Shown one piece after another: positions 10,874 through 44,316 of a stretch of 49,319 nucleotides of DNA (positions within the stretch are counted from its first letter, which is position 1; every line of letters begins with the position of its first letter). A model generated the notes under the pieces. It searched no databases. It saw only the letters and a program-made list of their open reading frames with translations, and was not told the DNA's origin. The stretch spans positions 1 through 49,319 of the forward strand of contig NZ_CP083670.1 in NCBI RefSeq assembly GCF_020097835.1. The letters run 5' to 3'. Source of the DNA: Haloprofundus halobius (GTDB lineage Archaea > Halobacteriota > Halobacteria > Halobacteriales > Haloferacaceae). A program made the position numbers and the translations under genes.

Positions 10874-10884
10874 CTTTGTTATGC
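10874..10884 (-). promoter_or_regulatory. GATAACAAAG-class promoter element (RHH gene)
   Basis: GCATAACAAAG on the minus strand; its last base is 25 nt upstream of the start codon at 10849. Confidence 0.65.
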
Positions 10885-11114
10885 GATTGTTACCTATTTT
10901 CTCTCGTATGTATCTAATTTCTATAACACATTATTGAAATTCAAACATATTCGTTTGCCTGAGTTTCGAGTTCGGTCATCGGCCCTGAAACGGCCCTTCC
11001 GACGGTTCGTGTCCTCGAAATTCGACACCGGCTCTTCCCAACAATTCCGTCGCGAGAGGTCGCAAAATACCAGAATATCGCGTATTACCTCACCGAGACT
11101 GAACTCTAGACGGA

Positions 11115-11125
11115 CGATAACAAAG
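11115..11125 (+). promoter_or_regulatory. GATAACAAAG-class promoter element (sulfatase-like gene)
   Basis: CGATAACAAAG; its last base is 25 nt upstream of the ATG at 11150. Its spacing is identical to the divergent RHH promoter. Confidence 0.65.
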
Positions 11126-11149
11126 CCACCCCTCGTGGACCACGTCCCG

Positions 11150-12382
11150 ATGACCGATCCGCAGAACGTCGTCCTCTTGACCGTCGACAGTTGGCGAGCC
11201 GACCACTGTGGTTTCATGGGCTACGACGGGGACACGACTCCAGCACTCGACGAGATCGCGGCGGACGGCCTCGTCTTCGAGAACGCCATCGCGCCGGCAC
11301 CGGAGACGAACAGTTCCGTCTCGACGATACTCACAGGCCACTATCCGATGAACGAACTCCGGTCGACGGGTATCGATTACACGGAGCGAATCCGCCACCA
11401 TATGCGGACCCGACAGACGCTCCCCGGTCTGTTCAAGGAGATGGGCTACACCACCGCCGCGTTCACGACGAACCCGTGGACGTCGAGGTTTTTCAATTTC
11501 GACACGGACTTCGACTTCTTCGAGGATTTCATGGACGACAACCTCTCGAGCGACTTCATCAAGGACGGCCGTCAGAGCTCCGTCGTCGGCGACCTCGCCG
11601 TCCAGATGATGAACTGGGCACAGGGACAGGACATGTTCATGTCGTGGGAGGCGTTCTACGACGACCTACAGGCGTGGATCGACGACGCCCCGGAACCGTA
11701 CTTCCTGTGGATCTTCCTCGTCGACATCCACATGCCGTATCTGCCCGGTAAGAACTACCGCTCGCAGTCGCCGCTGATGACGTACCCTGCGAACCTCTCG
11801 CTCTTCGCGGGGAAGTCGAATCTCCGCTTCGAATCGCTGTTCCACGACGTTCTGGTGCGTGCGTACGACGACACGATTCGGTACACGGACGCGTTTATCG
11901 ACCGCCTGCTGTCCGACGTCGACGGCGATTCGCTCGTCGCGATACACGCCGACCACGGCGAAGCGTTCGGGGAGGACGGCGTGTACGGACACGGCCCGCT
12001 CCTGTCCGAGGAGATGATTCACGTCCCGTTCGTCGTCGCGAACGGTCCACGAGACCGCGTCTCTCGACCGATTTCGCTCCGCCGACTTCCGGACCTGCTC
12101 CCGTCGCTGGCGACGACGGGCGAGTATCTACATGCGACCGACGACGTCGTCGGCGCGCGCAACTACGACCCGGCGCTCGCCGTCCGTGGGGAGACCTGGA
12201 AGTACGTCTGGCGACCGGAGTCCGAGCGCCTCCTCGACGGTCGTGACGGCGAGTGGAACGAGTTCGACGACCCACAACTCAGGGAGACGGGACGCCGTCT
12301 CGTCGCACAGTGGAAAGAGTCCGAACGCGAGCGCGGCCGCATTCACGACGCGGTCGATTCGATGCCGATAGCGCCGTTGTAG
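11150..12382 (+). CDS. Sulfatase-like / alkaline phosphatase superfamily hydrolase or transferase
   Basis: A 410-residue sulfatase-fold protein. The N-terminal metal motif is NVVLLTVDSWRADH and the second metal site is HADHGEAFGEDGVYGHG near residue 270. At the nucleophile position the sequence reads ETNSSVSTILTG, so the formylglycine motif Cys-x-Pro-x-Arg of true sulfatases is absent. A Thr or Ser would be the nucleophile, as in phosphoglycerol and phosphoethanolamine transferases of this superfamily. There is no signal peptide. I chose the ATG at 11150 from the domain start and from the upstream element 25 nt away; the frame extends further upstream with unrelated sequence. Probably a glycan or phosphodiester modifying enzyme; substrate unknown. 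Confidence 0.9.
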   Translation: MTDPQNVVLLTVDSWRADHCGFMGYDGDTTPALDEIAADGLVFENAIAPAPETNSSVSTILTGHYPMNELRSTGIDYTERIRHHMRTRQTLPGLFKEMGYTTAAFTTNPWTSRFFNFDTDFDFFEDFMDDNLSSDFIKDGRQSSVVGDLAVQMMNWAQGQDMFMSWEAFYDDLQAWIDDAPEPYFLWIFLVDIHMPYLPGKNYRSQSPLMTYPANLSLFAGKSNLRFESLFHDVLVRAYDDTIRYTDAFIDRLLSDVDGDSLVAIHADHGEAFGEDGVYGHGPLLSEEMIHVPFVVANGPRDRVSRPISLRRLPDLLPSLATTGEYLHATDDVVGARNYDPALAVRGETWKYVWRPESERLLDGRDGEWNEFDDPQLRETGRRLVAQWKESERERGRIHDAVDSMPIAPL

Positions 12383-12390
12383 CTCCGGAG

Positions 12391-13950
12391 TCAGCCGTCG
12401 ACTACGTAGCCCTGCACCGCACTCTGGTCGACACCGGTTATCGCGAGGTCCCCCGACTCGCTCCCGGACTCCAAGAGTTCCCCGCTGAGGCAGTACGGCG
12501 GCGACTCCCCGAGGAGATACCGCTGTACGTCCCCGTCCGCTCGCTCGCTCCGGGTCTCGAGTTCGTTCACCTCGCCGAGTTCGACGCCGCAGGTGTCCTC
12601 CTGTCGTTCGAGACCGACGACCAGCGGATATCGTCCCGCGACGATCGATAGTTCGTCGAGTCGCGTTCGCGGCGACTCGCTGACGATGATACCGTCTCGG
12701 TCGGTCCCTGGTTGCTGTATCTCGACGCCGGTGAGCGCCGAGTTCGCGCGGCCCTGGAGGAGGATTCCGCTCCAGTCGTTCCCATTACCGGTGATTCGGA
12801 GGTTCTCGACCGACAGGTCCCAACTGTCTGGGCGTCCACGCAAGCTGGGCGCGTAGAAGTTCTCTGCCTTCGGGTATCTGGCTTTGATGCCGTACGTCGG
12901 GGCGTCGATGTGGATTTTGGTGTTCCGAATCGTCGCTCGACCGTGTTCGCGGTCGACGACGATGCCGCCGGAACTCGTCGTCCCCTCCAGGTTGGTGATT
13001 CTTATGTCGCAGTCCTCGATGAGGGTGTTGTCGCCCTCTTTCAGCCAAATTCCACGCATGTTTGCCGCCCCGCCGTGCGTCTCGTCGACGCGAACTTTCG
13101 CGCCGCGGACGACGGCCTGTGTGTCGCCGTTTCCGCCGCCGACGCGAATCTGTGCGAGTCCGTTGTTCGCGTACTCGCCGCCGAGTATCTGCAGCGGCCC
13201 TCCGTGCGCCGACCCGTAGAGCCCCTGCACGTACCAGCCGACGATTCGGCAGTCTTTGAACGTTATCGACCCGGGGTCGCTCGCCGGGTAGATGAACACG
13301 GCCGTCCCGTTTCGGGCGCCGTCGGACATGTCGACGTTCTCGAAGAGCAACTCCGTGTTCGCACCCTTGGCCTCGATGTTGAACGCGTGGGTGTGCGTTT
13401 CGGAGACGTCGTGGTACCCTTTCATCCGAACGTCTCTGACGACGTTCGTCCCGGCCTCACAGAGGACCTGCAGCCGGGCTCCGGTGTTCTTCGCGGAACT
13501 GTCGACGGTGATCCCTTCGAGCCTGAAGCCGTTCACCCCCGAGAACGACATTATGGTCCCGGTGAAACCCTCCGGCGGTCGTATCACGGCGTCGTCGCCG
13601 ACGATACCGAAGTTGCGCAGTTTCTCGAAGTTCAGATAGTCCTCGACGCGGTAGACGCCTTTCGGGAAGTGCAACAGCGTGTTGTCGCCGGCGACGCGGC
13701 CGAGCAACTCGTCTATCGGTCTTTCCTCGTCGAGGTCCGCGCCGGCTTCCGTGACGTCGACGACGGTCTGGTACTCGTTGCTGTACGGTATCTCGTTCTC
13801 TTGGGAGGTTTCGTTCGCGGGGGTCGACGTGGCGGTCGATGGTGAGTCCGACTCGCCGCACCCGGCGAGACCGACACCAACGACTCCGGCGGAGAGGGCT
13901 TTCAGATAGCTTCGTCGGCGTAGTTTGCGGTCTGGACTCCTCTCAGTCAC
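12391..13950 (-). CDS. Tat-exported beta-helix lipoprotein
   Basis: A 519-residue protein with a twin-arginine signal (LRRRSYLKALSAG) and a lipobox LAGC at residues 28-31, so it should be exported folded and lipid-anchored at Cys31. A Ser/Thr/Pro/Glu-rich linker follows. The rest is a right-handed parallel beta-helix clearly related to residues 60-430 of the 869-residue protein ending at 7752 (shared runs such as GLYGSAHGG, GGEYANNGLAQIRVGGG, RGIWLKEG). It lacks the four C-terminal repeats. Translation starts at a GTG, 25 nt after a GATAACAAT element. Its stop is 8 bp from the convergent sulfatase-like gene. A cell-surface glycan lyase, epimerase or binding protein is plausible. Confidence 0.88.
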   Translation of the reverse strand: MTERSPDRKLRRRSYLKALSAGVVGVGLAGCGESDSPSTATSTPANETSQENEIPYSNEYQTVVDVTEAGADLDEERPIDELLGRVAGDNTLLHFPKGVYRVEDYLNFEKLRNFGIVGDDAVIRPPEGFTGTIMSFSGVNGFRLEGITVDSSAKNTGARLQVLCEAGTNVVRDVRMKGYHDVSETHTHAFNIEAKGANTELLFENVDMSDGARNGTAVFIYPASDPGSITFKDCRIVGWYVQGLYGSAHGGPLQILGGEYANNGLAQIRVGGGNGDTQAVVRGAKVRVDETHGGAANMRGIWLKEGDNTLIEDCDIRITNLEGTTSSGGIVVDREHGRATIRNTKIHIDAPTYGIKARYPKAENFYAPSLRGRPDSWDLSVENLRITGNGNDWSGILLQGRANSALTGVEIQQPGTDRDGIIVSESPRTRLDELSIVAGRYPLVVGLERQEDTCGVELGEVNELETRSERADGDVQRYLLGESPPYCLSGELLESGSESGDLAITGVDQSAVQGYVVDG

Positions 13951-13974
13951 GCTGTGCTATCTATCTGGTTAGGA

Positions 13975-13985
13975 TATTGTTATCC
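13975..13985 (-). promoter_or_regulatory. GATAACAAAG-class promoter element (beta-helix lipoprotein)
   Basis: GGATAACAATA on the minus strand; last base 25 nt upstream of the GTG start at 13950. Confidence 0.6.
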
Positions 13986-14039
13986 CTCACCTACCCCTCG
14001 TCGGTTCACACACCGGTGACTGATGACACGTTAATGCCC

Positions 14040-14050
14040 ACATTCCAAAG
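14040..14050 (+). promoter_or_regulatory. Weak GATAACAAAG-class element (deacetylase gene)
   Basis: ACATTCCAAAG, two mismatches to CATAACAAAG; last base 27 nt upstream of the ATG at 14077. Confidence 0.4.
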
Positions 14051-14076
14051 CCCGACTCGCTCGAATCTGCGGGCCG

Positions 14077-14775
14077 ATGGAGTTTACCTTCGACGAGTAC
14101 GGCCGTCTCTTGGACTCGCTCATCGAGGACGGGTACACGTTCACCGACTACGAGCGGATGCCGTCGCGCGGACAGGTTATCCTCCGGCACGACGTCGACT
14201 GGTCGCCCGAAAAGGCGCTTCGCATGGCTCGCATGGAGGCCGACCGCGACATCCGCGCGACGTACTTCTTTCTCGTCACGACGCCGTTTTACAACGTCCA
14301 CGCGAGGGATATCCGCGAATCTATCGCCGAGATCGAAGCGCTCGGTCACGACATCGGACTGCACTTCAGTACGCACGAGTACTGGCGCGAGGAACCGCTC
14401 GAATCCGACCTGATTCGCCGCATCGACGGCGAACGGCAGGCACTCGACCCCGTCGTCGGCGATCTCGCCGAGACTATCGCGTTCCACATCCCTCCCGAAT
14501 GGACGCTCGACCGCTCGTTCAACGGGTTCGTGAACAGCTACGAACCGCGGTTCTTCAGCGCCGTCACCTACCTCGGAGACTCCGGACAGCGGTGGCGCAG
14601 CGGCCATCCGTTTGAAGAGGAGATCCCCGAGCGGATGCAGTTGCTCACCCATCCCGGTCTGTGGGGAGACGCCGACGCGACGTTCGAGGAACGGCTCGAA
14701 CAGCAACAGGAACGCCGATTCGACGCGGTTCAGGGCTTTCTAGCGTCGGAGTTCCTCTCCGAAGGTGGCGATTAA
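14077..14775 (+). CDS. NodB-type polysaccharide deacetylase family protein
   Basis: A 232-residue cytosolic protein of carbohydrate esterase family 4 type. Motif 1 reads ILRHDVDWSP (the Asp and metal Asp), then ATYFFLV, and motif 2 reads GHDIGLHFSTHEYW with the H-x3-H metal pair. No signal peptide is present, so it probably acts on cytoplasmic glycan intermediates, removing N-acetyl groups from amino sugars. It leads a run of four rightward genes, with short gaps of 34 to 118 bp up to the membrane protein and phosphodiesterase. The exact substrate is not evident. Confidence 0.85.
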   Translation: MEFTFDEYGRLLDSLIEDGYTFTDYERMPSRGQVILRHDVDWSPEKALRMARMEADRDIRATYFFLVTTPFYNVHARDIRESIAEIEALGHDIGLHFSTHEYWREEPLESDLIRRIDGERQALDPVVGDLAETIAFHIPPEWTLDRSFNGFVNSYEPRFFSAVTYLGDSGQRWRSGHPFEEEIPERMQLLTHPGLWGDADATFEERLEQQQERRFDAVQGFLASEFLSEGGD

Positions 14776-14780
14776 CAATG
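14770..14780 (+). promoter_or_regulatory. GATAACAAAG-class element (membrane protein gene)
   Basis: GATTAACAATG, which has one inserted T relative to the consensus; last base 30 nt before the ATG at 14810. It overlaps the stop codon of the deacetylase gene. Confidence 0.45.
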
Positions 14781-14809
14781 GCCGTACCTCACGACCTCTG
14801 TAACTAGTT

Positions 14810-16627
14810 ATGAGTTTCAGACAGGCCGACGACGAGGCACCGGGCGGAGGGGACCTCGTCGCGACCGGGCTTCTCGCCGTCGGGTTCTTCGCGCTCGCGG
14901 GGGCGATTCTCTACGCGCGAAGCAATCCAGCGACGGGGTACGAGCTCTCGATATACGCTGGAACGCCCGTCGGCGTTTGGGCGGCCATCGGTGCCGCACT
15001 CCTCGTCGCCGCAGTGTACGCGCTGTTCCTTCCGAGGGGGACGACGCGCCTCTGGGCGCTCGTCCTCGGCGGGAGCGCAGTCACGACCGTCGTGGCGATG
15101 CCGCTCGTCCGCGGCTACTTCTTCGTGGGCGTCGGCGACTCGCTGAGTCACCTGGGCTGGGCGCGCTCGATTCAGCGCGCGACGATTCTGCCCCAGCAGA
15201 TGTTCTATCCGAGCATCCACAGTCTCACCGACGCTATCAACCTCGTCGCGGGGATGGGGCTTCGCCGCTCGATGATGCTCGTTGTCGTCGTCACGCTCGT
15301 CGCGTTCCTCATCTTCGTTCCGCTCACGGCCCGCGCGATGACCGGAAGCAACCGAGCGCTCGTGTTCGGCGCGCTCTCGGCGTGGTTGCTCCTGCCGCTG
15401 AACCACGTCGCGGTCCACCTGATGCCGCATCCGAGCACGCAGGCCATCTTCGTCGCCACCATCGCGGTGTACCTCCTCGTCCGCTACGTCCAGAGCCCCT
15501 CGGATAGCGCCCTCGGCAGCCCGATGGCGTTCGGAACGCTGTTCTTCCTCGCCGGTGCAGGAGTGGTGCTGTACCACCCGATGCAGGCGTTGAACCTCTT
15601 CATCCTCTGTGCGACGGTCGGACTCATCCAGTTCCTCGCACGCAGACGGGCGATGGACTCGGTCGTCGCCGGCCACCAGCCGATCTACGCGCAGACCGGC
15701 GTGCTCGGTCTGTTGCTGTTCTCGTGGATGGTTCCGCGAGAACGGTTCCAGGACGCGTTCGAAGGCGTCTACGTCGACATCATCCAGGGTTTGAACGTCG
15801 GTAGCCAACAGATCGAGAGCACGGGTGGAGGTGCCACGGGCGTCGGTGCGAGCCTCGAAGAACTGTTTCTCAAAATCTTCCTCGTCGCGGCTATCTACGC
15901 CGCGCTCACGGGGCTGTTCTTCCTGCTCACGTCGACCGGTCGGCTCGACGACGACGTGCGGAGCCAGTCGCTCGTGCTGTACCTCGGCGCGGCGTTGGTA
16001 CCGCTCGTCGGCCTCTTCGGCGCGTACTTCCTCGGTTCGCCGACGCTCGGCTACCGACAGCTCGGCTTCATCTTCGTCGTCGCGACCATCGTCGGCGCGG
16101 TGGCGCTGAGCAAACTCGTCGGCGGGCTTCAGAGTCGACTCACGTTCGACACCGCTCGGTCCGTCACCGCCGTCGTGATGGTCGCGATGCTCGCGATGTC
16201 GATGGTCGTCGTCTTCCCGTCGCCGTACGTCATCAAGACGACACAGCACGTCTCCGAGCAACAGTACTCGGGCTACGAGACGACGTTCGACCACCGCAAC
16301 GAGGAGGTGTTCTTCTCGGCCGCCGGCGGCGGTGCCGAACGCTTCTCCGACGCGGTGTACGGCTTCGAGAACGTCACCGAACCGTCCGGGCCGCCGGTGG
16401 GCGACACGACCGTCTCGGGCGGTAATGTGAGCAACGTCTCCGGGGTGTTCACCGGCCCACGGTACTTCGTGACGACGGAGGCGGACTACCAGCGCGAGAT
16501 ACTACTGTACAACCAGAAGGAGTACTCGCAGGACGAGTTCGAGTCGCTGCCGACGCAGCGGCAGATGAATCTCGTCCAGTCCAACGAGGAGTACACGCTG
16601 TACGTCACCCGCGACGGGTTCGAGTAG
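14810..16627 (+). CDS. Multi-pass membrane protein of the glycan locus
   Basis: A 605-residue protein with about eleven predicted transmembrane segments from residue 20 to 475 (for example VATGLLAVGFFALAGAILYA, VWAAIGAALLVAAVYALF, LGFIFVVATIVGAVAL). A soluble C-terminal domain of about 120 residues follows and should lie outside the cell. Between early helices is a conserved-looking loop, GDSLSHLGWARSIQRATILPQQMFYPSIHSL, whose Asp and His resemble those in loops of lipid-linked-sugar polymerases and C-type glycosyltransferases. It could be a Wzy-like polymerase, a GT-C transferase or a ligase; I do not recognise the family. Its position among glycosyltransferase and deacetylase genes supports a glycan role. 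Confidence 0.82.
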   Translation: MSFRQADDEAPGGGDLVATGLLAVGFFALAGAILYARSNPATGYELSIYAGTPVGVWAAIGAALLVAAVYALFLPRGTTRLWALVLGGSAVTTVVAMPLVRGYFFVGVGDSLSHLGWARSIQRATILPQQMFYPSIHSLTDAINLVAGMGLRRSMMLVVVVTLVAFLIFVPLTARAMTGSNRALVFGALSAWLLLPLNHVAVHLMPHPSTQAIFVATIAVYLLVRYVQSPSDSALGSPMAFGTLFFLAGAGVVLYHPMQALNLFILCATVGLIQFLARRRAMDSVVAGHQPIYAQTGVLGLLLFSWMVPRERFQDAFEGVYVDIIQGLNVGSQQIESTGGGATGVGASLEELFLKIFLVAAIYAALTGLFFLLTSTGRLDDDVRSQSLVLYLGAALVPLVGLFGAYFLGSPTLGYRQLGFIFVVATIVGAVALSKLVGGLQSRLTFDTARSVTAVVMVAMLAMSMVVVFPSPYVIKTTQHVSEQQYSGYETTFDHRNEEVFFSAAGGGAERFSDAVYGFENVTEPSGPPVGDTTVSGGNVSNVSGVFTGPRYFVTTEADYQREILLYNQKEYSQDEFESLPTQRQMNLVQSNEEYTLYVTRDGFE

Positions 16628-16703
16628 TTGACGTCCCGTCACCGTTCGACCCGCAGCGCCTTTCAACGACCAACTACTCGCCGGTTCTCGGAGGATACGC
16701 GAT

Positions 16704-16714
16704 GCATAACAAAG
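16704..16714 (+). promoter_or_regulatory. GATAACAAAG-class promoter element (phosphodiesterase gene)
   Basis: GCATAACAAAG, identical to the RHH promoter; last base 32 nt before the ATG at 16746. Confidence 0.6.
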
Positions 16715-16745
16715 CGAGTATCAACTCTGTCTCTGAGTAGTAGCA

Positions 16746-18387: not shown

Positions 18388-18398
18388 CCATTACAATA
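18388..18398 (+). promoter_or_regulatory. GATAACAAAG-class promoter element (LpxD-like gene)
   Basis: CCATTACAATA; last base 25 nt upstream of the GTG start at 18423. The spacing supports the GTG as a leaderless start. Confidence 0.5.
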
Positions 18399-19304: not shown

Positions 19305-21056
19305 TCAAGCGATTCGACCGGCGTCCGCCGCGACGACGGTGTACAGGTGCGAGAGTTCGGACTTCGAGTACGAGCGACCGTCGCCGATGATCTCCGAGAC
19401 CACACCCGGATCCAGACCGCTCGCGTCGTCACGGAGGAGTTCGTTTATCGGTCCCGTTATCTCGGGGTGGCTCTGTCCGAACTCGCGCTTGACGAGGCTG
19501 ACGATGGTCTTTTTCACGGTGGGGACGCGCCCGAGTTCCTCGTAGAACCGCTTCTTTAGGGCGTACTCGGTCGAGTTGATGGGGGCTCCGAAGTTGGCGT
19601 TTCGGATGTCGACCATCGCTGGAGAGAGCGCTTCGAGGAACGCGCGGTAGAGTTTGCGCCCGCGCTTCTGCTCTGCGGGGCAGTTCATCGCGTACTCGTA
19701 CACCGGACGGGCGTAAAACGGCGCGACGCTCGGGTAGTAGTAGCGGTTCCTGTCCTCGCCGTGCGTGAGCCAGTTCATCCCCCGCTCGCGGAGCAGGTAG
19801 TGGACGTACCGGTTCGAGAGGTCCGATTCGGGGTACGACCGCACTCGGTCGCGGACGCTGTTTCGGAGTTCCTCCGTCGACACGCCCGTCATCTCGGCGG
19901 CGGTTTCGAGCGAGAAGATGCTGTTCGAATCGACGATCTCCTCGACGAGTTCGGCTTCCGAGGACGGGTCGTTCCCCGGCATCAGGTTCTCTAACACCTT
20001 GTCCCCGCCGTCACCGGTGACGTAGGAGGCGGGTCCGACGTCCTCGCGGAGCCGCTCGAAGAACTCGTAGATGAACGACATCCCGAGGTAATTCATCCCC
20101 TGCTTCGTCTCCAACAGCAGCGACGTCGCACGGTCGCTGCGCGGAACGGCGTACAGTTGCCACGGGATGTCTAACTCGTCGGCGACGATTTCGGCGACGT
20201 TCCCCTCCTCGCTGTCGCCGTCGCCGACGGTGAACGTCGCCGCGGTCGTGGGAACGCCCGCACGCGAGTATCCCGCCGCGACGGCGCGGGAGTCGAGACC
20301 GCCGCTGAGCGAGATGATGTGCTGGTCGGCGATACGCCCGCGGCGCTCGCAGGCCTCGATGAACAGTTCCGCGAGCGCTTCGGCGTTCTCCTCGATGCTT
20401 CGGTCCGCGTAGTCGTAGCTGTCGAAGTCGTACTCGTGTACCCGCCGCGTCGATGCTCCGCGGTCGTCGACCGTGAGCATCGATCCCGGCGAAATCCGCT
20501 CCACGTCCGAGTAGAGCGTCCGCGTTCCGAGCGTGTAGCCGAACAGAAGCATCTGCGCCGCTCCGATCCGGTCGAGATTCGTCGGCTCGTTCAGTTCGCG
20601 GGCGACGGAACGAACAAACTTCAGTTCCCTGGAGACGACGACGGTGTCGCCGATGGTAGCGTAGTAGGTCGGAAGCCGAGCGAGAACGTCCGTCAGCGCT
20701 CGAACGTCGCCGTTCGACTCGTCGACGGTGAGAACGACGAAGTCGCCGTCACGCGATTCGAGCCAGCGTTCGAGGTTAGCCGAGTCCCCCTCCTGCATCC
20801 ACTCGGCGACCTTCCGAACCTCTTCCGCCGTGTCCTCCACGTCGTAGAGATATCCTTCGAGAACGGCGAGACCGCCGTCAAACTCGACGGTCTCGACGGG
20901 ATACTCTTCGTATCCCACGTGACCGACGTACGTGCTCGATGCGTGGAAGTCTTCGTGTACTTCGTACCAATCCAGAAAACGGACGTTCTCGAGCGACTTC
21001 GAGAGGGAGGCGTCGTCGAGTTCGTCCGTTCCGCGGACGACAGTAAGCCCTGGCAT
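19305..21056 (-). CDS. Asparagine synthetase-like protein with inactive glutaminase domain
   Basis: A 583-residue AsnB-family protein. The C-terminal synthetase domain carries the ATP pyrophosphatase loop SLSGGLDSRAVA (SGGLDS at 251-256), and SYVTGDGGDKVLENLMPG lies further on. The N-terminal half keeps the Ntn glutaminase fold (GGLAVLEGYLYDVEDTAEE, RDGDFVVLTVD) but begins MPGLTVV, with no Cys2 nucleophile. It therefore cannot use glutamine in the usual way and may use free ammonia or another amine to amidate a carboxylate, possibly on a uronic-acid glycan. I chose the ATG at 21056; an alternative ATG or TTG lies 15 bases upstream. A TAACTTTG promoter-like element sits 26 nt before 21056. Confidence 0.88.
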   Translation of the reverse strand: MPGLTVVRGTDELDDASLSKSLENVRFLDWYEVHEDFHASSTYVGHVGYEEYPVETVEFDGGLAVLEGYLYDVEDTAEEVRKVAEWMQEGDSANLERWLESRDGDFVVLTVDESNGDVRALTDVLARLPTYYATIGDTVVVSRELKFVRSVARELNEPTNLDRIGAAQMLLFGYTLGTRTLYSDVERISPGSMLTVDDRGASTRRVHEYDFDSYDYADRSIEENAEALAELFIEACERRGRIADQHIISLSGGLDSRAVAAGYSRAGVPTTAATFTVGDGDSEEGNVAEIVADELDIPWQLYAVPRSDRATSLLLETKQGMNYLGMSFIYEFFERLREDVGPASYVTGDGGDKVLENLMPGNDPSSEAELVEEIVDSNSIFSLETAAEMTGVSTEELRNSVRDRVRSYPESDLSNRYVHYLLRERGMNWLTHGEDRNRYYYPSVAPFYARPVYEYAMNCPAEQKRGRKLYRAFLEALSPAMVDIRNANFGAPINSTEYALKKRFYEELGRVPTVKKTIVSLVKREFGQSHPEITGPINELLRDDASGLDPGVVSEIIGDGRSYSKSELSHLYTVVAADAGRIA

Positions 21057-21081: not shown

Positions 21082-21092
21082 CAAAGTTAATC
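21082..21092 (-). promoter_or_regulatory. Divergent GATAACAAAG-class element (AsnB-like gene)
   Basis: GATTAACTTTG on the minus strand; last base 26 nt before the start at 21056. Position fits but the sequence is the weakest match of the set. Confidence 0.35.
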
Positions 21093-21160: not shown

Positions 21161-22084
21161 TTACTGCGCCAGCACGTCCTCGTAGACGTCGTAGATGTGG
21201 TCGGCCATCTGTTCGATGCCGATGCGTTTGGCTTCCTCACGTCCGTTCGACCGCCCGCCCCGTTCGAGCACCCGAATCAGATTCTCGACGAGTTCCTCGT
21301 CGCAGTCGCAGACTGCGGAGGGCTCGACTTCGGCGAGTCGCTCCGGAACGTCGCCGACGCGCGTCGCGACGACCGGAAGGTTGCAGGCCAGCGACTCCTT
21401 GACGACGTTCGGCGACCCCTCTCGCTTCGACGTGAGCAACAACGAGTCGGAGGCGTTCATGTACACCGCAACGCGAGGGTGCGGGAGACCGCTTATCGTG
21501 TGGAGTTCGACCGGTTTCGACAGCCGTTCTCGGGCGGCCTCGACGACGCGTTCGGCCCGCGGGTAATCTTTCACCGTCCGCTCCGGCGAGTAGGGGAACA
21601 GAACGTGGTAGGAGTCGTCATCCCAATCCAGTTCGTCCCGCGCCTCTGTCTGCGGCGTTGGGCTGAACCGCTCCAGGTCGACACCGTGGGGGATGACCGA
21701 ACACTCCTGCCCGAGCGACCGCTTCATCTCCTCGGACATCACGATGACCGCGTCACAGAAGCGGGCTGACGCCTTGCTCACCGGCCTGTACGATCCTTCG
21801 AGGTCCGACCCCCAAAGCGAGAGCACGACCGGCAGTCTGGGCTGCGAGAGCGCCATCGGCGCGGTGAGACCGTAGTTCGCGTGTATCAGGTCGTACGACC
21901 CGAGCGACTGACGGATGACCTGCGGGAAGAATCGCAGATAATCCGTCGCCGTCCGCGGAGACCCGGCTCGGTGTTTGCCCGGAACGGAGAGGGTCGTACA
22001 GCTCACGTCGTGCGCTTCGAGCGCCCGAACCTGTAGTTGATAGAATCTTGCGTCGGCGTTGGTAGTCAAGTTGAGAACGTGCAT
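21161..22084 (-). CDS. GT4-family glycosyltransferase
   Basis: A 307-residue GT-B glycosyltransferase. The N-terminal domain includes DLIHANYGLTAPMAL and VLSLWGSDLEG. The C-terminal nucleotide-sugar domain has VIPHGVDLERFSP, HTISGLPHPRVAVYMNASDSLLL and SKREGSPNVVKESLAC, where the E-x7-E pattern of retaining GT4 enzymes is visible. It is somewhat shorter than the usual 350-400 residues. No membrane segment; it should act at the cytoplasmic membrane face on a lipid-linked acceptor. It is divergent from the DUF354 gene, and both have a GATAACAAAG-class element in the shared upstream region. Confidence 0.92.
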   Translation of the reverse strand: MHVLNLTTNADARFYQLQVRALEAHDVSCTTLSVPGKHRAGSPRTATDYLRFFPQVIRQSLGSYDLIHANYGLTAPMALSQPRLPVVLSLWGSDLEGSYRPVSKASARFCDAVIVMSEEMKRSLGQECSVIPHGVDLERFSPTPQTEARDELDWDDDSYHVLFPYSPERTVKDYPRAERVVEAARERLSKPVELHTISGLPHPRVAVYMNASDSLLLTSKREGSPNVVKESLACNLPVVATRVGDVPERLAEVEPSAVCDCDEELVENLIRVLERGGRSNGREEAKRIGIEQMADHIYDVYEDVLAQ

Positions 22085-22124: not shown

Positions 22125-22135
22125 CTTTGTTATCC
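22125..22135 (-). promoter_or_regulatory. GATAACAAAG-class promoter element (GT4 gene)
   Basis: GGATAACAAAG on the minus strand, a consensus match; last base 41 nt before the start at 22084, which implies a leader of about 16 nt. Confidence 0.55.
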
Positions 22136-22226: not shown

Positions 22227-22237
22227 CCATAACAAAG
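22227..22237 (+). promoter_or_regulatory. GATAACAAAG-class promoter element (DUF354 gene)
   Basis: CCATAACAAAG; last base 28 nt before the ATG at 22265. Confidence 0.6.
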
Positions 22238-27493: not shown

Positions 27494-27504
27494 CTTTGTT
27501 ATCC
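27494..27504 (-). promoter_or_regulatory. GATAACAAAG-class promoter element (FemAB-like gene)
   Basis: GGATAACAAAG on the minus strand; last base 29 nt before the start at 27465. Confidence 0.6.
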
Positions 27505-32568: not shown

Positions 32569-32883
32569 GAATGACGTAGTGGAATCTCGACCGGGCGTCC
32601 GCCCCCCAGTCCGTACAGTTGCAATCCAGACCAGTTGGTGTCGTAGCTTTGTTATTCACAGCCTGATGCCAGAGTATGAGCCAGTTTACCAATTTTCAGT
32701 ATATCGAGTATCGAAATTTAATTTCGAGCGCGAAACGAATGGAGTCCCAACCGAATTACAATGTGAGACAAGCGAGCGACGGTCCCGCGTTAGCCAGCGG
32801 ATAGTAAAGTGTCGATAGGATGGATGGGTAAGACATGTACTGGCAGTTCAGTCGAACCGTAGACGGAGCGAACTCATGGCCTC
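32569..32883. other. Divergent promoter region of the wbp operon
   Basis: About 315 bp between the wbpD-type gene and a rightward DUF7344 gene. It contains the GAATAACAAAG element at 32647-32657 (minus) and an AT-rich stretch (about 32690-32725) that probably serves the rightward gene. No further gene seen. Confidence 0.45.
32647..32657 (-). promoter_or_regulatory. GATAACAAAG-class promoter element (wbp operon)
   Basis: GAATAACAAAG on the minus strand; last base 79 nt before the start at 32568. Confidence 0.5.
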
Positions 32884-33423
32884 ATGCGAGGGATGACTAG
32901 CGCACCGTCCGGTGGCCTCACGCAGGGCGAACTGTTCGATACGCTCTGCAACCAGCGCCGACTCGGTATCATCCGTCATCTCCAGGCGAGCGACGGCGTC
33001 TCGCGGTTGAGTCCTCTCGTCGACTACGTCGCCGCCGCCGAGAACGGCAAGCAACCCGACGACCTCGCCCGCGCCGAGCGACGACGCGTCTACATCTCGT
33101 TGTACCAGACGCATCTCCCGATGCTCGAAGAGCGGGGCATCGTCGAGTGGGACCGTACTGACAACGTCATCTCGCTTCGACCGAGCAGCAACGTCGAGCG
33201 ATATCTCGGGCACAGTACTGGAAGCGACCGACCGTGGCACGTCGGTTACATACTCACGAGCGTTCTCGGAGCCGGTCTGTTACTTCTACAAGCGCTGCAC
33301 ATTGCACCGTTCGACGGGCTCTCTCTCTCGTGGACACTCGCGGTCGTCAGCGCGGCCGTTCTCGGCATCGTCGTCGCCCGATACGCCCTTGAGCGACCAC
33401 CTCGAATGCCAATCACTCCCTGA
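32884..33423 (+). CDS. DUF7344-type winged-helix membrane protein (copy 2)
   Basis: A 179-residue member of the haloarchaeal family also seen at 4773, 38982 and 45731. The winged-helix part shows GELFDTLCNQRRLGIIRHL, LSPLVDYVAAAEN and RRRVYISLYQTHLPMLEERGIVEW. Two hydrophobic segments follow in about residues 120-170 (YILTSVLGAGLLLLQALH and WTLAVVSAAVLGIVVA). The start may be 32884 or the ATG at 32893. It lies 11 bp upstream of the ATP-grasp gene, so the two are probably co-transcribed. Function unknown; a membrane-bound regulator is plausible. Confidence 0.86.
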   Translation: MRGMTSAPSGGLTQGELFDTLCNQRRLGIIRHLQASDGVSRLSPLVDYVAAAENGKQPDDLARAERRRVYISLYQTHLPMLEERGIVEWDRTDNVISLRPSSNVERYLGHSTGSDRPWHVGYILTSVLGAGLLLLQALHIAPFDGLSLSWTLAVVSAAVLGIVVARYALERPPRMPITP

Positions 33424-36440: not shown

Positions 36441-36451
36441 TTTTGTTATGC
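36441..36451 (-). promoter_or_regulatory. GATAACAAAG-class element (DUF1616 gene)
   Basis: GCATAACAAAA on the minus strand, 67 nt before the start at 36374; implies a leader of about 42 nt. Confidence 0.45.
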
Positions 36452-36769: not shown

Positions 36770-36804
36770 CTGTACATTCTGATAGACCGTTCAACGTACT
36801 GGGT

Positions 36805-36815
36805 ATTTGTTATCC
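36805..36815 (-). promoter_or_regulatory. GATAACAAAG-class promoter element (padR gene)
   Basis: GGATAACAAAT on the minus strand; last base 36 nt before the start at 36769. Confidence 0.5.
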
Positions 36816-38233: not shown

Positions 38234-38286
38234 CCACCGGCGTTGCGTCCATTTTCGGCGTATCGTATTCATCCAGCGGAGCCCAG

Positions 38287-38298
38287 AAAATATATAAT
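38287..38298 (+). promoter_or_regulatory. TATA box of the 159-residue membrane protein gene
   Basis: AAAATATATAATGG, a canonical TATA box ending about 28 nt before the ATG at 38326. Confidence 0.55.
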
Positions 38299-38325
38299 GG
38301 TGTGCAGAGCGTGGACAGTATACTG

Positions 38326-38805: not shown

Positions 38806-38981
38806 TCGCGTTTTACCTCCCGAAATTCGTTATTTTAACATAGTATTTCAGTTGTAAATGTAATACTGAAAGCAAACGTGACAGTGCAAACTATTAAACC
38901 TGCCTGAAGACACAAGCAATATACTGAGACGAAACCGGCACAGCGGGTCACACAACCACGCGTGAGGACTGAGAGAGGACA

Positions 38982-39503
38982 ATGTACGCGTTAGAGAGGA
39001 TGACAGGCGAGGTAAACACCGAACGAGAACTGGACGAGGCGGAGATATTTCACATACTGGGGAACGACCGCCGACGGGCCACCATCAACGGATTAGCGGA
39101 GAGCGGCGGGAGTATCGCCGTCTCCGAACTCGCGGAGCAGATCGCCGCACAGGAGGCCGACACCGAGGAAGACGCACAGAAGCTGTACAAGAGCGTCTAC
39201 GTCTCGCTCAGGCAGACGCATCTCCCGAAACTCGAAGAGCAGGGAATCATCCAGTACGACGCGGACAACCAGCGTATCATGCCGGGCGCGCAGATGAACG
39301 AGATACAGGTGTACACCGACGGAACGACCGGTCTCGAGGCCGTGCACCGGTCGGTGTATCTCGTGGTCAGCGTCATCGGACTGCTCACCATAATCGGTGC
39401 GCAACTGGGTGTCCCCGTTCTCAATGTGCTGGCGGTCGAGGTGTGGGCGGTCATCTTCCTCACGCTCATCATCGTTCTCGGCGTCTACCAGCAGTACCGC
39501 TAA
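38982..39503 (+). CDS. DUF7344-type winged-helix membrane protein (copy 3)
   Basis: A 173-residue family member. The head shows AEIFHILGNDRRRATINGL, VSELAEQIAAQEAD and LYKSVYVSLRQTHLPKLEEQGIIQY. The tail has two membrane spans (YLVVSVIGLLTIIGAQLGV, LAVEVWAVIFLTLIIVLGVY). The sequence is much closer to copy 4 at 45731 (shared KSVYVSL.QTHLPKL and VAAEVWAV-like segment) than to copies 1 and 2, so 3 and 4 look like a recent duplicate pair. The ATG at 38982 follows a GAGAGGAC ribosome-binding site; ATG 39000 is an alternative. Confidence 0.87.
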   Translation: MYALERMTGEVNTERELDEAEIFHILGNDRRRATINGLAESGGSIAVSELAEQIAAQEADTEEDAQKLYKSVYVSLRQTHLPKLEEQGIIQYDADNQRIMPGAQMNEIQVYTDGTTGLEAVHRSVYLVVSVIGLLTIIGAQLGVPVLNVLAVEVWAVIFLTLIIVLGVYQQYR

Positions 39504-39512
39504 AACGCTCTG

Positions 39513-39740
39513 CTACAGGTCGATATCCTCGAACGCCATCAGATCAGGAAGGTCCGCTACCGCCTGGTGTGTTCCGCGGTACGTCGCGGCGTCCGTCGCT
39601 CGGTTGAACGTCGACACGTCCGGATACTCGCGCAGCGTGAGGACTCGGCCATCGGAGACCGCGAAGACGACTTCCATCGTCCCGTTCTGATACTGGTACT
39701 GGTCGGCTTTGGTAGCGTCTCCGGGAGCAGTCGAATCCAT
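39513..39740 (-). CDS. Small conserved haloarchaeal protein
   Basis: A 75-residue acidic protein: YQNGTMEVVFAVSDGRVLTLREYPDVSTFNRATDAATY, then a short helix. The beta-hairpin-rich middle and the 'VLTLREYPD' motif are familiar from small haloarchaeal proteins of unknown function. It is convergent with the DUF7344 gene, with a 9-bp gap. No membrane segment or metal site. Confidence 0.75.
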   Translation of the reverse strand: MDSTAPGDATKADQYQYQNGTMEVVFAVSDGRVLTLREYPDVSTFNRATDAATYRGTHQAVADLPDLMAFEDIDL

Positions 39741-39799
39741 ACTGCAACTGTAGCGTGCGACCGACTTATCTCTTCGTCAGAATAGCAGCGGGTGAGATC

Positions 39800-42073: not shown

Positions 42074-42134
42074 GTTCACTCCCCACCCGCACTAGTAGAT
42101 GCGGGCGTCGGTTCGAGAATTGACTAGTTAAAGA

Positions 42135-42145
42135 GATTGTTATTC
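42135..42145 (-). promoter_or_regulatory. GATAACAAAG-class element (PGF-CTERM gene)
   Basis: GAATAACAATC on the minus strand, 62 nt before the ATG at 42073; implies a leader of about 37 nt. Confidence 0.4.
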
Positions 42146-42187
42146 GTCTACTGAAACAGGTTAGGAGTTCGTTACTATGGTAGGGTC

Positions 42188-43024
42188 TCAGTTCTCCGGC
42201 GCGGCGGCGAAGGGCGAGCGGGAGGCCTCCGGTTCGCAACCGCGGATGCAGATGAGGTTTTCGCGGCCGAGACGGAGTTTCGTTATCTCGCCCTCCTCGT
42301 CCAACCGCGACAGCAGACGGCTCACTTTCGCCTTCGACCACTCGACTTCCTCGACGATAGCCACCTGTCGCATCTGGCCGTCGTGCTCCTCGAGTAATCG
42401 CATAATACACTCCTCGTCGGTCGGTGTCGGCTCCGGGTCCACCAGGGACGGCTCGACTTCGCGTTCGAGACCGGTCGGGGCGGAGAGTCGCCGGTACGCC
42501 ACGAGTCCGATACTGACGAGTACCGTCGTGAGGCTCAGCATGAGCGCGAAGTAGTCGATCTCGGCGAGACGCTCGTCCGCGCTCGGATTCATCCACTCGA
42601 TGGGCGGCGCGGCGTACACGTCGTTTTGAATCGGCGAGGCGCCGCCGCGCTGCAGAGCGGCGCCCGAGGCGGCGTCTAACCGACCCAAGAACACGGTGAA
42701 CGTTATTCGAGTCGACTCCCCGCGGAGCAGCGAGTCGCCGAAGACGGTGTCAAGCAGCGCGGTGCCGGTGTCGGCGACGATCGAGGGGAGAGCGGCGACG
42801 GAGAGCGACGGGCTATCAGTCCAAACGAGCGAACTGTCGTCGGAGAGTTGCCACAGTTGCGTCGACGCGACGTCGACGCCGTTCGTCACCGAGAACGAAT
42901 CGGCGGACGCAGCGGGCGAGTGTGCCGGGTCGTCGGCGACGACCGAACCGCACGCGACGCTCAACAGAACGATGCAGAGTACGGCTGTCTTCGCGTACGC
43001 GCTCGTTGATCGGCCCGAAATCAT
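42188..43024 (-). CDS. Membrane-anchored winged-helix protein with exported sensor-like domain
   Basis: A 278-residue protein. It has a signal sequence (TAVLCIVLLSVACGSVVA), an extracytoplasmic stretch of about 130 residues, one transmembrane segment (ALMLSLTTVLVSIGLVAY, about residue 165) and a cytoplasmic C-terminal winged helix (CIMRLLEEHDGQMRQVAIVEEVEWSKAKVSRLLSRLDEEGEI). This matches haloarchaeal DUF7343-type proteins and suggests direct signalling from outside the cell to DNA. It lies 108 bp upstream of, and on the same strand as, the PGF-CTERM protein gene, which could be its target or partner. Confidence 0.86.
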   Translation of the reverse strand: MISGRSTSAYAKTAVLCIVLLSVACGSVVADDPAHSPAASADSFSVTNGVDVASTQLWQLSDDSSLVWTDSPSLSVAALPSIVADTGTALLDTVFGDSLLRGESTRITFTVFLGRLDAASGAALQRGGASPIQNDVYAAPPIEWMNPSADERLAEIDYFALMLSLTTVLVSIGLVAYRRLSAPTGLEREVEPSLVDPEPTPTDEECIMRLLEEHDGQMRQVAIVEEVEWSKAKVSRLLSRLDEEGEITKLRLGRENLICIRGCEPEASRSPFAAAPEN

Positions 43025-43366
43025 ACTCGAGTGACGTAGATGTTCTGTCTCATGTTTTCTCCCAGAGTCAGCCGCGAGCGACTGCGATGGCGTCGCTGTC
43101 TCCGGATTACTTATGCACAGACTGGTTCGGAGAATATAGCCTTTATCACGTTACAAAAACTCGTAAATAACTATACGGAAGTCAGTCTCGTGAGTTGATA
43201 CTCACGGGCCGAAGGTACCCGTCGATAGTAGAGAAGTGAGACGAACCGACAGGGAGAGAATCTCGGCAGGAGAGAACCGAAGGAGGAGGAACGCAGCACT
43301 ACCTTATTTTGTCGCGCGTGCGTCGCGTCGGACGGTGGAGGTCGATTACTGGGCGGCGCGGGTCGA
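43025..43366. other. Intergenic region with a small hairpin
   Basis: About 340 bp without a recognisable gene. CGTGAG-TTGATA-CTCACG (43189-43206) forms a 6-bp hairpin, and a purine-rich stretch follows (43225-43300). The decamer GGTCGATTAC occurs twice near 43338-43370, next to the galE-like stop codon. Confidence 0.35.
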
Positions 43367-44281
43367 TTACTCACACAGCGACGCGAGTCCGTTCTCGAGT
43401 GTCACCGTCGGTTCGTAGCCGAGCGACTCTCGGATGCGGGAGATGTCGGCTCTGCTGTCGCGAACGTCGCCGGATCGGGCGTCGACGTGGGTTATCTCCG
43501 ACGAGGAGTCCGCGGCGTCGCGGATTGCGGCCGCGAGTTCGTTTATCGAGATGCTGTCGCCGGTACCGACGTTGTACGCTCGTCCCACCGCGTCGGTCGT
43601 CCCTGCGGCGAGGTTCGCTCGAACGACGTCGCGCACGTGGACGAAGTCCCGGGTCTGCTCGCCGTCTCCTTCGACGGTTATCGGCCGGTTCGACGTCGCT
43701 TGGTCGAGGAAGATGCTGATGACGCCGCTGTAGTCGCCCGCAGTCTGTCGGGGACCGTAGACGTTGAAGTACCGGAGCGCGACGGTCTCTAGCCCGTAGA
43801 GGTCGTGATAGATTCTCGCGTACGTGTCGAGCGCGAGTTTATCCGCGCCGTACGGCGACTCCGGGTTCTTCGGGTGCGACTCGCTGATGGGTACGTCCTC
43901 GGGTTGACCGTAGATGGCCGCACTCGACGAGAGCACGACGCGCGCATCCACCTCTCTGGCGTGTTCGAGCAACGAAACCGTCGCCGCCGCGTTGGTGCTG
44001 TGGCTCAAGAGCGGATCTTCGACCGACGCCGAGACGCTGACCAGCGCCGCGGTGTGATAGATCAGATCGACACCCGAAACGGCGCGTTCCAAGAGGTCGT
44101 CGTCGCGGATGTCGCCCTCGAAGACAGTAACGTCGTCTCGGAGATTCTCCCGTCGACCCGACGAGAAGTCGTCGACGATTCGGACGTCGTTCGCTTCGAT
44201 CAGCGCGTCGACGAGGTGACTTCCGATGAATCCCGCGCCGCCGGTAACGAGTACCGTCTGTCCCGTTGGTGATTCGGTCAT
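43367..44281 (-). CDS. NAD-dependent sugar epimerase/dehydratase (GalE-like)
   Basis: A 304-residue extended short-chain dehydrogenase. VLVTGGAGFIGSHLVDAL is the NAD-binding motif, SSSAAIYGQPEDVPI carries the catalytic Ser, and SPYGADKLALDTYARIYH supplies the Tyr-x3-Lys pair. The nearest activity is UDP-glucose/UDP-N-acetylglucosamine 4-epimerase, but 4,6-dehydratases share these motifs. A GCATACCAAAG element ends exactly 25 nt upstream of the start, so it belongs to the same promoter class as the glycan genes 12-33 kb away. Confidence 0.92.
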   Translation of the reverse strand: MTESPTGQTVLVTGGAGFIGSHLVDALIEANDVRIVDDFSSGRRENLRDDVTVFEGDIRDDDLLERAVSGVDLIYHTAALVSVSASVEDPLLSHSTNAAATVSLLEHAREVDARVVLSSSAAIYGQPEDVPISESHPKNPESPYGADKLALDTYARIYHDLYGLETVALRYFNVYGPRQTAGDYSGVISIFLDQATSNRPITVEGDGEQTRDFVHVRDVVRANLAAGTTDAVGRAYNVGTGDSISINELAAAIRDAADSSSEITHVDARSGDVRDSRADISRIRESLGYEPTVTLENGLASLCE

Positions 44282-44305
44282 TGTGTAACTGTTCGAGCGA
44301 TAGCC

Positions 44306-44316
44306 CTTTGGTATGC
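44306..44316 (-). promoter_or_regulatory. GATAACAAAG-class promoter element (GalE-like gene)
   Basis: GCATACCAAAG on the minus strand, one mismatch to GCATAACAAAG; last base 25 nt before the start at 44281. Confidence 0.55.

Follow-up and report, generated by a model that had tools for sequence, protein, structure and literature searches.

The regulons of bacterial alternative sigma factors are each defined by one core-promoter sequence that marks a functional gene set, and haloarchaea have many TFB genes. PMC2121645 put forward the idea that TFBs may differ in the promoter class they read, and also describes the bop promoter of Halobacterium as having the TATA sequence GTTACA and no BRE. The canonical haloarchaeal promoter, as given in PMC4983044, comprises the BRE CGAAA, the TATA element TTWT, and WW at -10. 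In GvpE-activated gvp promoters, a 20-nt UAS, made of two 8-nt halves separated by 4 nt, lies next to the BRE (PMC4390858).

The window analyzed here, 49,319 nucleotides in length, is an entire 49-kb Haloprofundus contig, evidently a plasmid. It contains seven exact copies of ATAACAAAG, each of them followed 20-85 nt downstream by a start on the same strand, which bears out the original prediction of a recurrent core in the orientation of the gene. This recurrence is genuine and far above chance expectation, considering that 503 permuted 9-mers averaged 0.09 copies in the window (the highest, a single permutation, reached 4) and first-order Markov shuffles of the window averaged 0.01 copies of ATAACAAAG. 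The 11-mer including G(G/C), initially proposed as the unit, turned out to be over-specified. It occurred 15 times with at most two mismatches versus 5.9 times in shuffles, with none of 100 shuffles as high, but exact G(G/C)ATAACAAAG was present in only four copies in the window, which are all of its copies in the genome, and the flanking GS is variable. GATAACAAA, overlapping ATAACAAAG sites, was also listed four times in the window. The supported unit is YA-N8-ATAACAAAG-N13-W. Its A at -9, in numbering relative to the A of ATAAC, is a second conserved position that the earlier description had overlooked; 87 of 105 non-redundant sites have it, and W at +22 occurs at 88 of 105, compared to 45 of 138 and 71 of 138, respectively, around permuted 9-mers of the same DNA. 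Positions -8 to -1 showed weak preferences, mostly for G/C, and the profile contains 10-11 bp steps formed by A(-9), T(-20), and TA(-31/-30).

Flanks were compared at 99 sites in three groups of 33: those with a start 17-32 nt away, those whose start is more distant, and those lacking one. In this order, A(-9) was present in 82, 91, and 70% and W(+22) in 81, 91, and 82% of the sites. Since the flanks are alike regardless of a start codon about 25 nt away, the element acts like a signal for transcription. Of 18 loci of a tRNA-like RNA gene, 7 (six of them from one genus) have the element, in each case 26 nt before the RNA, a spacing that hints at a transcription start without the help of a start codon. 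In 68 sampled chromosomal starts, a modest A+T rise was detected at about -35 to -26, the same slot as that of the element.

Similarly to the canonical promoter, the element lies in the slot upstream of leaderless starts and has a W located 10-13 nt ahead of the predicted start. WW near -10 is represented through W(+22), the only strong W position. In contrast, ATAACAAAG would stand in place of CGAAA-TTWT: TTWT in the -30 region is absent from the 9-mer, which fills the slot, and CGAAA directly upstream of the box is absent from the element profile. The additional A at -9 is unmatched in 34 ordinary TATA promoters, where every upstream position had at most 43% A. A non-canonical box in the TATA slot is common to bop and the element, whereas bop is a single promoter with another box and the element recurs across many genes and several families. 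A contact at a constant distance immediately upstream of the core, as in gvp, would fit the A(-9) signal; however, the gvp halves lie upstream of BRE and TATA, whereas the strongest letters of the element are in the core slot. Two 8-nt half-sites of the GvpE type were not found, the upstream signal consisting of single positions about 10-11 nt apart. Alternative sigma regulons share with this system a single core-promoter sequence marking a functional gene set, but the machinery here is archaeal, with a dedicated reader only as a candidate. Our literature search found no published description of the element.

The original prediction listed 16 element-bearing starts, for which the site listing gave A at -9 in 15 and C/T at -10 in 13. 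As a scale of chance, when the corresponding span before each of 2,000 random positions was scanned, the top match reached at least 8/9 in 16 cases and at least 7/9 in 73. Exact cores lie at 10874..10882 (- strand; 24 nt before ORF 10849), 11117..11125 (+; TA at -10/-9; 24 nt before the sulfatase gene 11150), 16706..16714 (+; 31 nt before the phosphodiesterase-family gene 16746), 22125..22133 (-; 40 nt before the glycosyltransferase gene 22084), 22229..22237 (+; 27 nt before the DUF354 glycosyltransferase gene 22265), 27494..27502 (-; 28 nt before the GNAT/FemAB-type gene 27465), and 32647..32655 (-; 78 nt before the hexapeptide acyltransferase operon 32568). ORF 10849 is weak, with 80 amino acids and no Pfam match, and the region before it is A+T-rich; in the sister plasmid L015, ORF 10849 and the sulfatase gene are both unannotated and the gap between the neighboring genes is 275 bp. 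Matches of 8/9 precede the DUF1616 gene 36374 (ATAACAAAA, 36441..36449, -, 66 nt), the PadR-like gene 36769 (ATAACAAAT, 36805..36813, -, 35 nt), and the epimerase gene 44281 (ATACCAAAG, 44306..44314, -, 24 nt, matrix score 22.4). Matches of 7/9 precede the beta-helix gene 13950 (ATAACAATA, 13975..13983, -, 24 nt, TA at -10/-9), gene 14077 (ATTCCAAAG, 14042..14050, +, 26 nt, TA at -10/-9), gene 14810 (TTAACAATG, 14772..14780, +, 29 nt), and the PKD-domain gene 42073 (ATAACAATC, 42135..42143, -, 61 nt, CA at -10/-9). The core before the hexapeptide gene 18423 is weak (ATTACAATA, 18390..18398, +, 6/9), yet it has CA at -10/-9 and the right spacing of 24 nt. For the AsnB-like gene 21056, the claimed site (TTAACTTTG, 21082..21090, -) is unsupported, because a 5/9 match is at chance level versus random positions. 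The predicted fixed distance, with the last base at -25 (24 intervening nt), proved exact for genes 10849, 11150, 13950, 18423, and 44281. Among the genes named for contrast as having ordinary TATA boxes, 10361 and rdfA do have ordinary T/A boxes around that position, and the 159-amino-acid gene 38326, on the + strand, has the upstream sequence AAAATATATAAT.

In the sister plasmid L015 and in L016, the sites of 22084, 22265, 27465, 32568, 36769, and 42073 are kept, and the counterpart of 13950 has ATAACAATG at the same spacing of 24 nt. The site of 14077 has a matrix score of 14.4 compared to a null 99% level of 10.5. Homologues elsewhere scored above null for gene 16746 (11 of 12) and, counted by locus, for gene 14810 (4 of 5), and the element was found at homologues of 22084 (4 of 5), 22265 (4 of 6), 27465 (4 of 11 overall, with the site kept in three Haladaptataceae loci and Halostella), and 36374 (5 of 6, at 87-118 nt), but at none of four homologues of 44281. 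Taken together by matrix score, 39 of 56 homologues of element-bearing window genes exceeded the 99% null, compared to none of 41 operon-internal genes; in four loci outside the matrix training, the figures were 10 of 16 and 0 of 15. In other families, homologues of operon-leading window genes are marked by the element and operon-internal genes are unmarked.

The genome holds 14 exact copies of ATAACAAAG, seven on this contig, six on C1, and one on C3, so that 1.25% of its DNA holds half of them. A same-strand ORF start lies within 19-78 nt of 13 of the 14 copies; none was found near the C3 copy. The six C1 targets encode a phosphodiesterase-family protein, two GNATs, an FG-GAP protein, a PGF-CTERM protein, and a 484-amino-acid protein of unknown role; use at similar frequency by housekeeping genes was not seen there, none of the six belonging to a housekeeping family. 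Looser variants on the chromosome are located upstream of a histidine kinase and a DNA methylase. Placement in the genome and the homologue comparison support the predicted distinct promoter class or TATA-replacing site for glycan genes. Its restriction to glycan genes did not hold, as surface proteins, GNATs, DUF7344 genes, and, in relatives, the tRNA-like RNA are included.

The element heads homologous polysaccharide operons in Haladaptataceae, Natrialbaceae, Halostella, and Haloferax mediterranei, where it is contained in the pHME505 polysaccharide locus. ATAACAAAG was enriched in 28 of 28 Haladaptataceae genomes (1,018 versus 290 control hits). Genome G149 has six chromosomal copies, and three of the four loci examined are orthologous to sites of the Haloprofundus genome. 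The 9-mer is rarer than its control in f12 and genus g2, and the class is therefore not universal in the order.

Because distant relatives keep the element in the TATA slot, it appears to be an archaeal promoter type of its own, and it is probably a separate core-promoter class. We consider it fairly likely that it serves as the core promoter for a distinct and conserved haloarchaeal gene class, with a specialized TFB paralogue, together with the common TBP, as the preferred candidate reader. Transcripts would start about 25-26 nt past the final G of ATAACAAAG. Since the element fills the BRE/TATA slot, the pre-initiation complex would probably be built by a non-standard reader, replacing the ordinary TBP/TFB contact with CGAAA/TTWT, and a helper protein may contact the A one helical turn upstream of the core. 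Judging by its position, the element may replace the TATA box; it would drive transcription, and the shared sequence suggests co-regulation of the glycan genes. Surface-polysaccharide operons and some envelope genes could then be switched as one set, as with a bacterial alternative sigma factor.

The Haloprofundus genome encodes ten TFBs plus one TFB fragment, and two TBPs. The plasmid TFB gene (1772..2692, -; Pfam TFIIB and zinc ribbon) is a candidate reader, not the only one, and is kept alongside the locus in sister plasmids at 98-99% identity; no element was found in its upstream region. As sole reader it is ruled out, since G149, lacking it (best match 65%), retains the chromosomal sites, a comparison that covers the plasmid TFB. 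In two f6 genomes, an exact element is followed by a TFB gene roughly 115-145 nt downstream. Of the 51 retrieved TFB loci (33 distinct TFB rows), just 2 are preceded by an exact element, neither of them that of the plasmid TFB. In the retrieved chromosomal polysaccharide loci of Haladaptataceae, no TFB gene was found. The more specific proposal, that an alternative core promoter read by a dedicated TFB, and not an added activator, serves exopolysaccharide and envelope genes of several families and even a tRNA-like RNA, is advanced tentatively.

It is possible, if somewhat unlikely, that a DUF7344 winged-helix regulator instead binds on top of or next to a weak core promoter, recruiting TBP/TFB or blocking them until a signal arrives. 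The near-invariant 9-mer is sharper than expected for TBP/TFB binding and would be in keeping with a sequence-specific regulator, as would its combination with the 10-11 bp steps; however, the site is non-palindromic. The window encodes a candidate regulator (4773..5360, +; PF24035), whose structural model shows a predicted winged helix and, after it, long helices that by eye look membrane-spanning, albeit with a best PDB match of E 0.024 and a mean pLDDT of 70. A second family member (32884..33423, +; own-built DUF7344 profile, E 1.8e-50), divergent from the 32568 operon, has ATAGTAAAG with TA at -10/-9 located 74 nt upstream, and this divergent DUF7344/acyltransferase arrangement around the element recurs in L044 and L174. 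DUF7344 genes are present in the locus in Haloprofundus, H. turkmenica, Halomicrococcus, other Haladaptataceae, and Halostella, but absent from the retrieved Halobaculum, H. mediterranei, and Natronorubrum stretches, which have the element or a degenerate form, and from those of L175, L176, and L177, where an unlinked copy is possible. In the Haladaptataceae stretches listed first, a DUF7344 ORF lies no further than 1 kb from 3 of 22 sites, where we estimate an expectation of about 0.2, given the 17 copies in 3.8 Mb of G041. However, at the same distance one was found for none of the 6 chromosomal sites of the Haloprofundus genome, for 1 of the 7 in the window, and for 1 of 32 in the 3-kb loci from Haloprofundus and f6. 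Moreover, the family occurs in 43 of 47 genomes searched, including genomes without element enrichment.

Against a separate class, it can be argued that ATAACAAA is an odd TATA box for the ordinary machinery. An improbable extension of this view is that the site is a repressor operator over a poor TATA box, its fixed letters being kept by the covering repressor. In archaea, repressors are known to act through sites that overlap BRE/TATA (PMC6085418), and the contig has several winged-helix genes. However, inspection revealed no inverted repeat over the box in ATAACAAAG and the profiled flanks, spacing and W(+22) are common to the sites in a core-promoter-like manner, and beside most window sites no ordinary box at the usual spacing was seen by eye. 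Chance recurrence, or common ancestry of duplicated promoters in one locus, is very improbable: the sites were picked by eye and some are weak, but the window counts far exceed shuffles, all 28 Haladaptataceae genomes are enriched over control, homologous genes of other families retain the element, and three G000/G149 orthologous pairs have an intact 9-mer despite differing flanks.

If the separate core-promoter class is indeed read by a dedicated TFB, it would be an archaeal counterpart of an alternative-sigma regulon and would help explain why these cells have about ten TFB genes. A near-invariant, easily mutated element at dozens of sites within one genome makes the question of TFBs and promoter classes directly testable. 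It also provides a handle on the joint switching of exopolysaccharide and surface proteins, including in Haloferax mediterranei.

The 9-letter core ATAACAAAG occurs seven times in the window, always 20-85 nt upstream of a start codon on the same strand and in five of the seven cases at 22-32 nt. Permutations of the same letters (503 tested) averaged 0.09 copies in the window, with a maximum of 4, and first-order shuffles of the window contained a mean of 0.01 copies of ATAACAAAG. The observation of a recurrent element holds, with corrections. At the 16 starts named in the original prediction, the core is exact at seven, matches in 8/9 letters at three and in 7/9 at four, and is weaker at one (6/9); the claim for the start at 21056 (5/9) is not supported. 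The fixed spacing proposed for five of the starts is exact, at 24 nt, and the G(G/C)-flanked 11-mer as originally written has only four exact copies. A weight matrix for the extended element placed 13 of 40 scored window starts above the 99% level of the null (10.5); these include 10864, through a shifted site, and 43024, which the original list lacked. The starts at 14810 and 18423 (antisense ORFs called) and 11150 (wrong start) were left out. With the same matrix, 6 of 112 starts exceeded this level in the chromosome control, the stretches of which had been chosen for holding a site.

The window is the complete contig C5 (49,319 bp) of a 3.95-Mb genome in five contigs. Since two named circular sister plasmids match it, NZ_CP083665 of Haloprofundus salinisoli and pMHR1-4 of Haloprofundus sp. 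MHR1, we regard it as a Haloprofundus plasmid. It encodes ParA, Cdc6/Orc1, a TFB and RdfA, along with over 20 polysaccharide, surface, or regulatory proteins. The polysaccharide set comprises GlmS, phosphohexomutase, UDP-sugar dehydrogenase, Gfo oxidoreductase, DegT aminotransferase, hexapeptide acyltransferase, flippase, and glycosyltransferases, and resembles a pathway for making an acetamido-uronic-acid polysaccharide. An 80-aa ORF and a sulfatase gene at 10607-12382, together with their two exact elements, are unannotated in the sister-plasmid stretch L015; this segment may reflect an insertion in the window or a loss in L015. On a Halomicrococcus plasmid (L018), a gene annotated as histidine--tRNA ligase (L018:19244-20566) adjoins a flippase gene within the polysaccharide region.

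In the sister plasmids, the same genes again have the element upstream, and a homologous polysaccharide locus bearing it was found on Haladaptataceae chromosomes. It is also present in Haloterrigena turkmenica pHTUR04, Halostella pelagica, Natronorubrum aibiense, and Haloferax mediterranei pHME505, and in a looser form in Halobaculum salinum. Of 56 homologues of element-bearing window genes, 39 scored above the null, compared with 0 of 41 operon-internal homologues (UDP-sugar dehydrogenase, Gfo, DegT, GT2, YdjM-like, deacetylase, and TFB); the matrix was trained on several of the compared loci, and in four untrained loci, counted apart, the figures were 10/16 and 0/15. By family, the counts were 11/12 for the phosphodiesterase, 5/6 for DUF1616, 4/4 for the beta-helix protein, 4/5 each for the 14810-type protein and the glycosyltransferase, 4/6 for DUF354, 4/11 for GNAT, 2/2 for the acyltransferase, 1/1 for the PKD protein, and 0/4 for the epimerase, which was counted as element-bearing, with glmS in neither group. 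The distance from element to start differs between haloarchaeal families although the element is retained; for the closest phosphodiesterase homologues it is 31 nt in the window versus 56-68 nt in five other loci. Between H. halobius and its relative G149, the 9-mer is intact at three orthologous chromosomal promoters, whereas the flanks differ. The YdjM-like gene of H. mediterranei, with a score of 1.2 from the start used, nevertheless has ATAACAAAA 63 nt upstream of a longer version of its reading frame. No site was detected within 145 nt of three glmS homologues; exact copies lie ~200-340 nt upstream of glmS homologues in three loci (L046, L050, and L053), and the window carries ATAACAATG (5576-5584, plus strand) in the gap separating the DUF7344 gene from glmS, at 140 nt from the start of glmS (5725), a copy retained at the equivalent position in both sister-plasmid stretches (L015 and L016). 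If the phosphohexomutase gene starts at 4129, it is preceded by ATACTAATG (4154-4162, minus strand), a 6/9 match with 24-nt spacing and TA at -10/-9, possibly a degenerate member of the class heading toward the TFB gene. The Halomicrococcus plasmid L018, whose TFB is among the closest to the plasmid TFB outside the genus (66%), contains only two matches to ATAACAA[AT] in 50 kb, and one of its beta-helix homologues has a matrix score of 12.3.

Alignment of 97 non-redundant sites from all loci revealed conservation outside the core at A(-9) (79%), Y(-10), T(-20), TA(-31/-30), and W(+22), counted from the first A of the core, with the upstream signals spaced by ~10-11 bp, one helix turn; most loci behind this alignment, the start-codon split, and the permutation control described here were chosen for holding the 9-mer. 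When 99 sites were split into thirds, with a start codon at 17-32 nt, further away, or without a called gene start within 130 nt (33 each), A(-9) was present in 82, 91, and 70% and W(+22) in 81, 91, and 82%, respectively. The architecture of the site is independent of the translation start, as expected of a promoter. A(-9) accompanied 87 of 105 element sites versus 45 of 138 permuted 9-mers in the same DNA, and W(+22) 88 of 105 versus 71 of 138; among the looser variants ATAACAA[AT][ACT], each was found in 28 of 34. In ordinary TATA promoters (n = 34; 27 from Haladaptataceae loci and 7 from the genome of H. halobius, before pooling), A never exceeded 43% at any upstream position. Ordinary genes of H. 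halobius (68) show a modest rise in A+T at about -35 to -26, and the element fills this slot.

An RNA gene provides a further mark of the transcription start. This 85-nt tRNA-like RNA is encoded in or near the polysaccharide locus in several Haladaptataceae genomes. Copies were noted at L045:8820-8904, L050:10644-10728, L053:10724-10808, L077:2058-2142, and L178-L203, of which L203 is the H. halobius copy (G000:C1:676542-676639). Among 18 RNA loci (L178-L195), ATAACAAAG occurs within 60 nt upstream in seven, and in all seven the RNA 5' end follows 26 nt after the element; these loci are not independent, because six of them are from a single genus, g46. As the gene has no start codon, this spacing supports a transcription start ~26 nt downstream of the element. 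The RNA has tRNA acceptor, D, and T arms, and many copies carry a hairpin, from a tetraloop to a long arm, in place of the anticodon loop. A covariance model at E 1e-8 detected it in 28 of 43 genomes and, among Haladaptataceae, in 14 of 16; the model's weakest hits may be ordinary tRNAs. ARAGORN reads an anticodon in some Halorussus copies, and six of seven loci tested against Rfam score as tRNA (39-48 bits). In some genomes the RNA gene adjoins polysaccharide genes; in Haloprofundus and in f6, a family that 82% DNA identity would place near Halostella, its neighbor is the succinate dehydrogenase gene. No description of this RNA was found among the literature matches listed. Because FemAB/GNAT-type genes are present in the locus, we would guess at a non-decoding tRNA donating its amino acid.

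The H. halobius genome contains 14 exact 9-mers, seven in the window, six on C1, and one on C3. In 13 of the 14 a same-strand ORF starts 19-78 nt downstream, by an ORF scan that was permissive (75-100 aa), so that these position counts are not strict; for the C3 copy no such start was found. Six genes on C1 follow a copy: one of the type I phosphodiesterase family, two for GNAT acetyltransferases, and one each for an FG-GAP repeat protein, a PGF-CTERM protein, and a 484-aa protein whose family match is marginal. On C3, the exact copy and four looser matches all lack an ORF start within 120 nt and therefore look like background. With the exact copies placed across the genome, the element did not occur at an equal rate at housekeeping genes. 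Three of four looser C1 places precede long ORFs, which encode a histidine kinase, a 967-aa protein, and a DNA methylase; if these sites are real, the gene set is not purely envelope related. The proposal of a distinct promoter class co-regulating glycan genes is well supported by sequence as to the class and would need widening as to the genes.

At least one copy of the 9-mer is present in 364 of 392 genomes of the order. Family tallies, covering 100 of the 392 with the same letters backwards as control, were 1018 versus 290 in Haladaptataceae (higher in 28/28 genomes), 101 versus 36 in f6 (8/9), and 49 versus 29 in Haloprofundus (5/5), whereas the element was rarer than the control in family f12 (55 versus 87; 26 genomes) and genus g2 (67 versus 122; 32 genomes). 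Sites beyond the main locus were sampled in 20 stretches of three Haladaptataceae genomes, taken in listed order; a DUF7344 gene follows 3 of the 22 sites therein. Of ten downstream ORFs scanned (seven Haladaptataceae, three f6), five were assigned to a family: PKD surface protein, GNAT, DUF5658, DUF7563, and formyltransferase-like.

Consulted passages of earlier work report CGAAA (BRE), TTWT (TATA), and WW at -10 as haloarchaeal elements (PMC4983044), a bop promoter with GTTACA and without BRE, for which special TBP-TFB pairs were raised (PMC2121645), GvpE action via a 20-nt UAS beside BRE (PMC4390858), repressors over BRE/TATA and WW (PMC6085418), and membership of RdfA, also encoded on the window plasmid, in the H. 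volcanii CsmR regulon (PMC13286277); the element appears in none of them. Nor did we find a published description within accessible papers on haloarchaeal promoters, TFBs, glycans, and EPS, and among the matches listed for the 9-mer string none was archaeal by title.

As to what reads the element, we tentatively favor a specialised TFB, at somewhat under even confidence. A TFB gene lies on the plasmid beside the locus and is 98-99% conserved in the sister plasmids. At two f6 loci (L101 and L106, on G006:C2 and G078:C2), a TFB gene is located roughly 115-145 nt downstream of an exact ATAACAAAG, which suggests that one TFB belongs to the element's regulon. TFB was not found in the fetched stretches of chromosomal Haladaptataceae loci, and a tree of 33 distinct TFB rows, built to find a matching clade, had long branches. 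The plasmid TFB as sole reader is ruled out, since G149 lacks it and keeps sites (six copies; three of the four examined are orthologous to H. halobius sites). Ranking only slightly below a specialised TFB is recognition by DUF7344 or another HTH protein. Winged-helix DUF7344 proteins are encoded in many element loci, sometimes behind an element of their own, but did not turn up in the stretches examined from H. mediterranei, Natronorubrum, and Halobaculum and are widespread elsewhere; as a locus-linked universal reader DUF7344 is rejected, the gene having been found at only some of the element loci examined. The helices following the winged helix look membrane-spanning by eye, and we found no literature match for DUF7344. 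TFB and DUF7344 genes lie close by each other in the window (1772-2692 and 4773-5360), on pHTUR04 (L017:19626-20582 and 21331-21927), and on the Halomicrococcus plasmid (L018:13294-14250 and 15856-16449). The remaining probability, the smallest, falls to ordinary factors using an unusual box; TBP variety was considered as an explanation, and H. halobius has only two TBP genes.

In kind, the element is an archaeal core promoter with its regulon, and its promoter class is new to the literature searched. There is a realistic prospect that it will prove a clear example of a TFB-specific promoter class.
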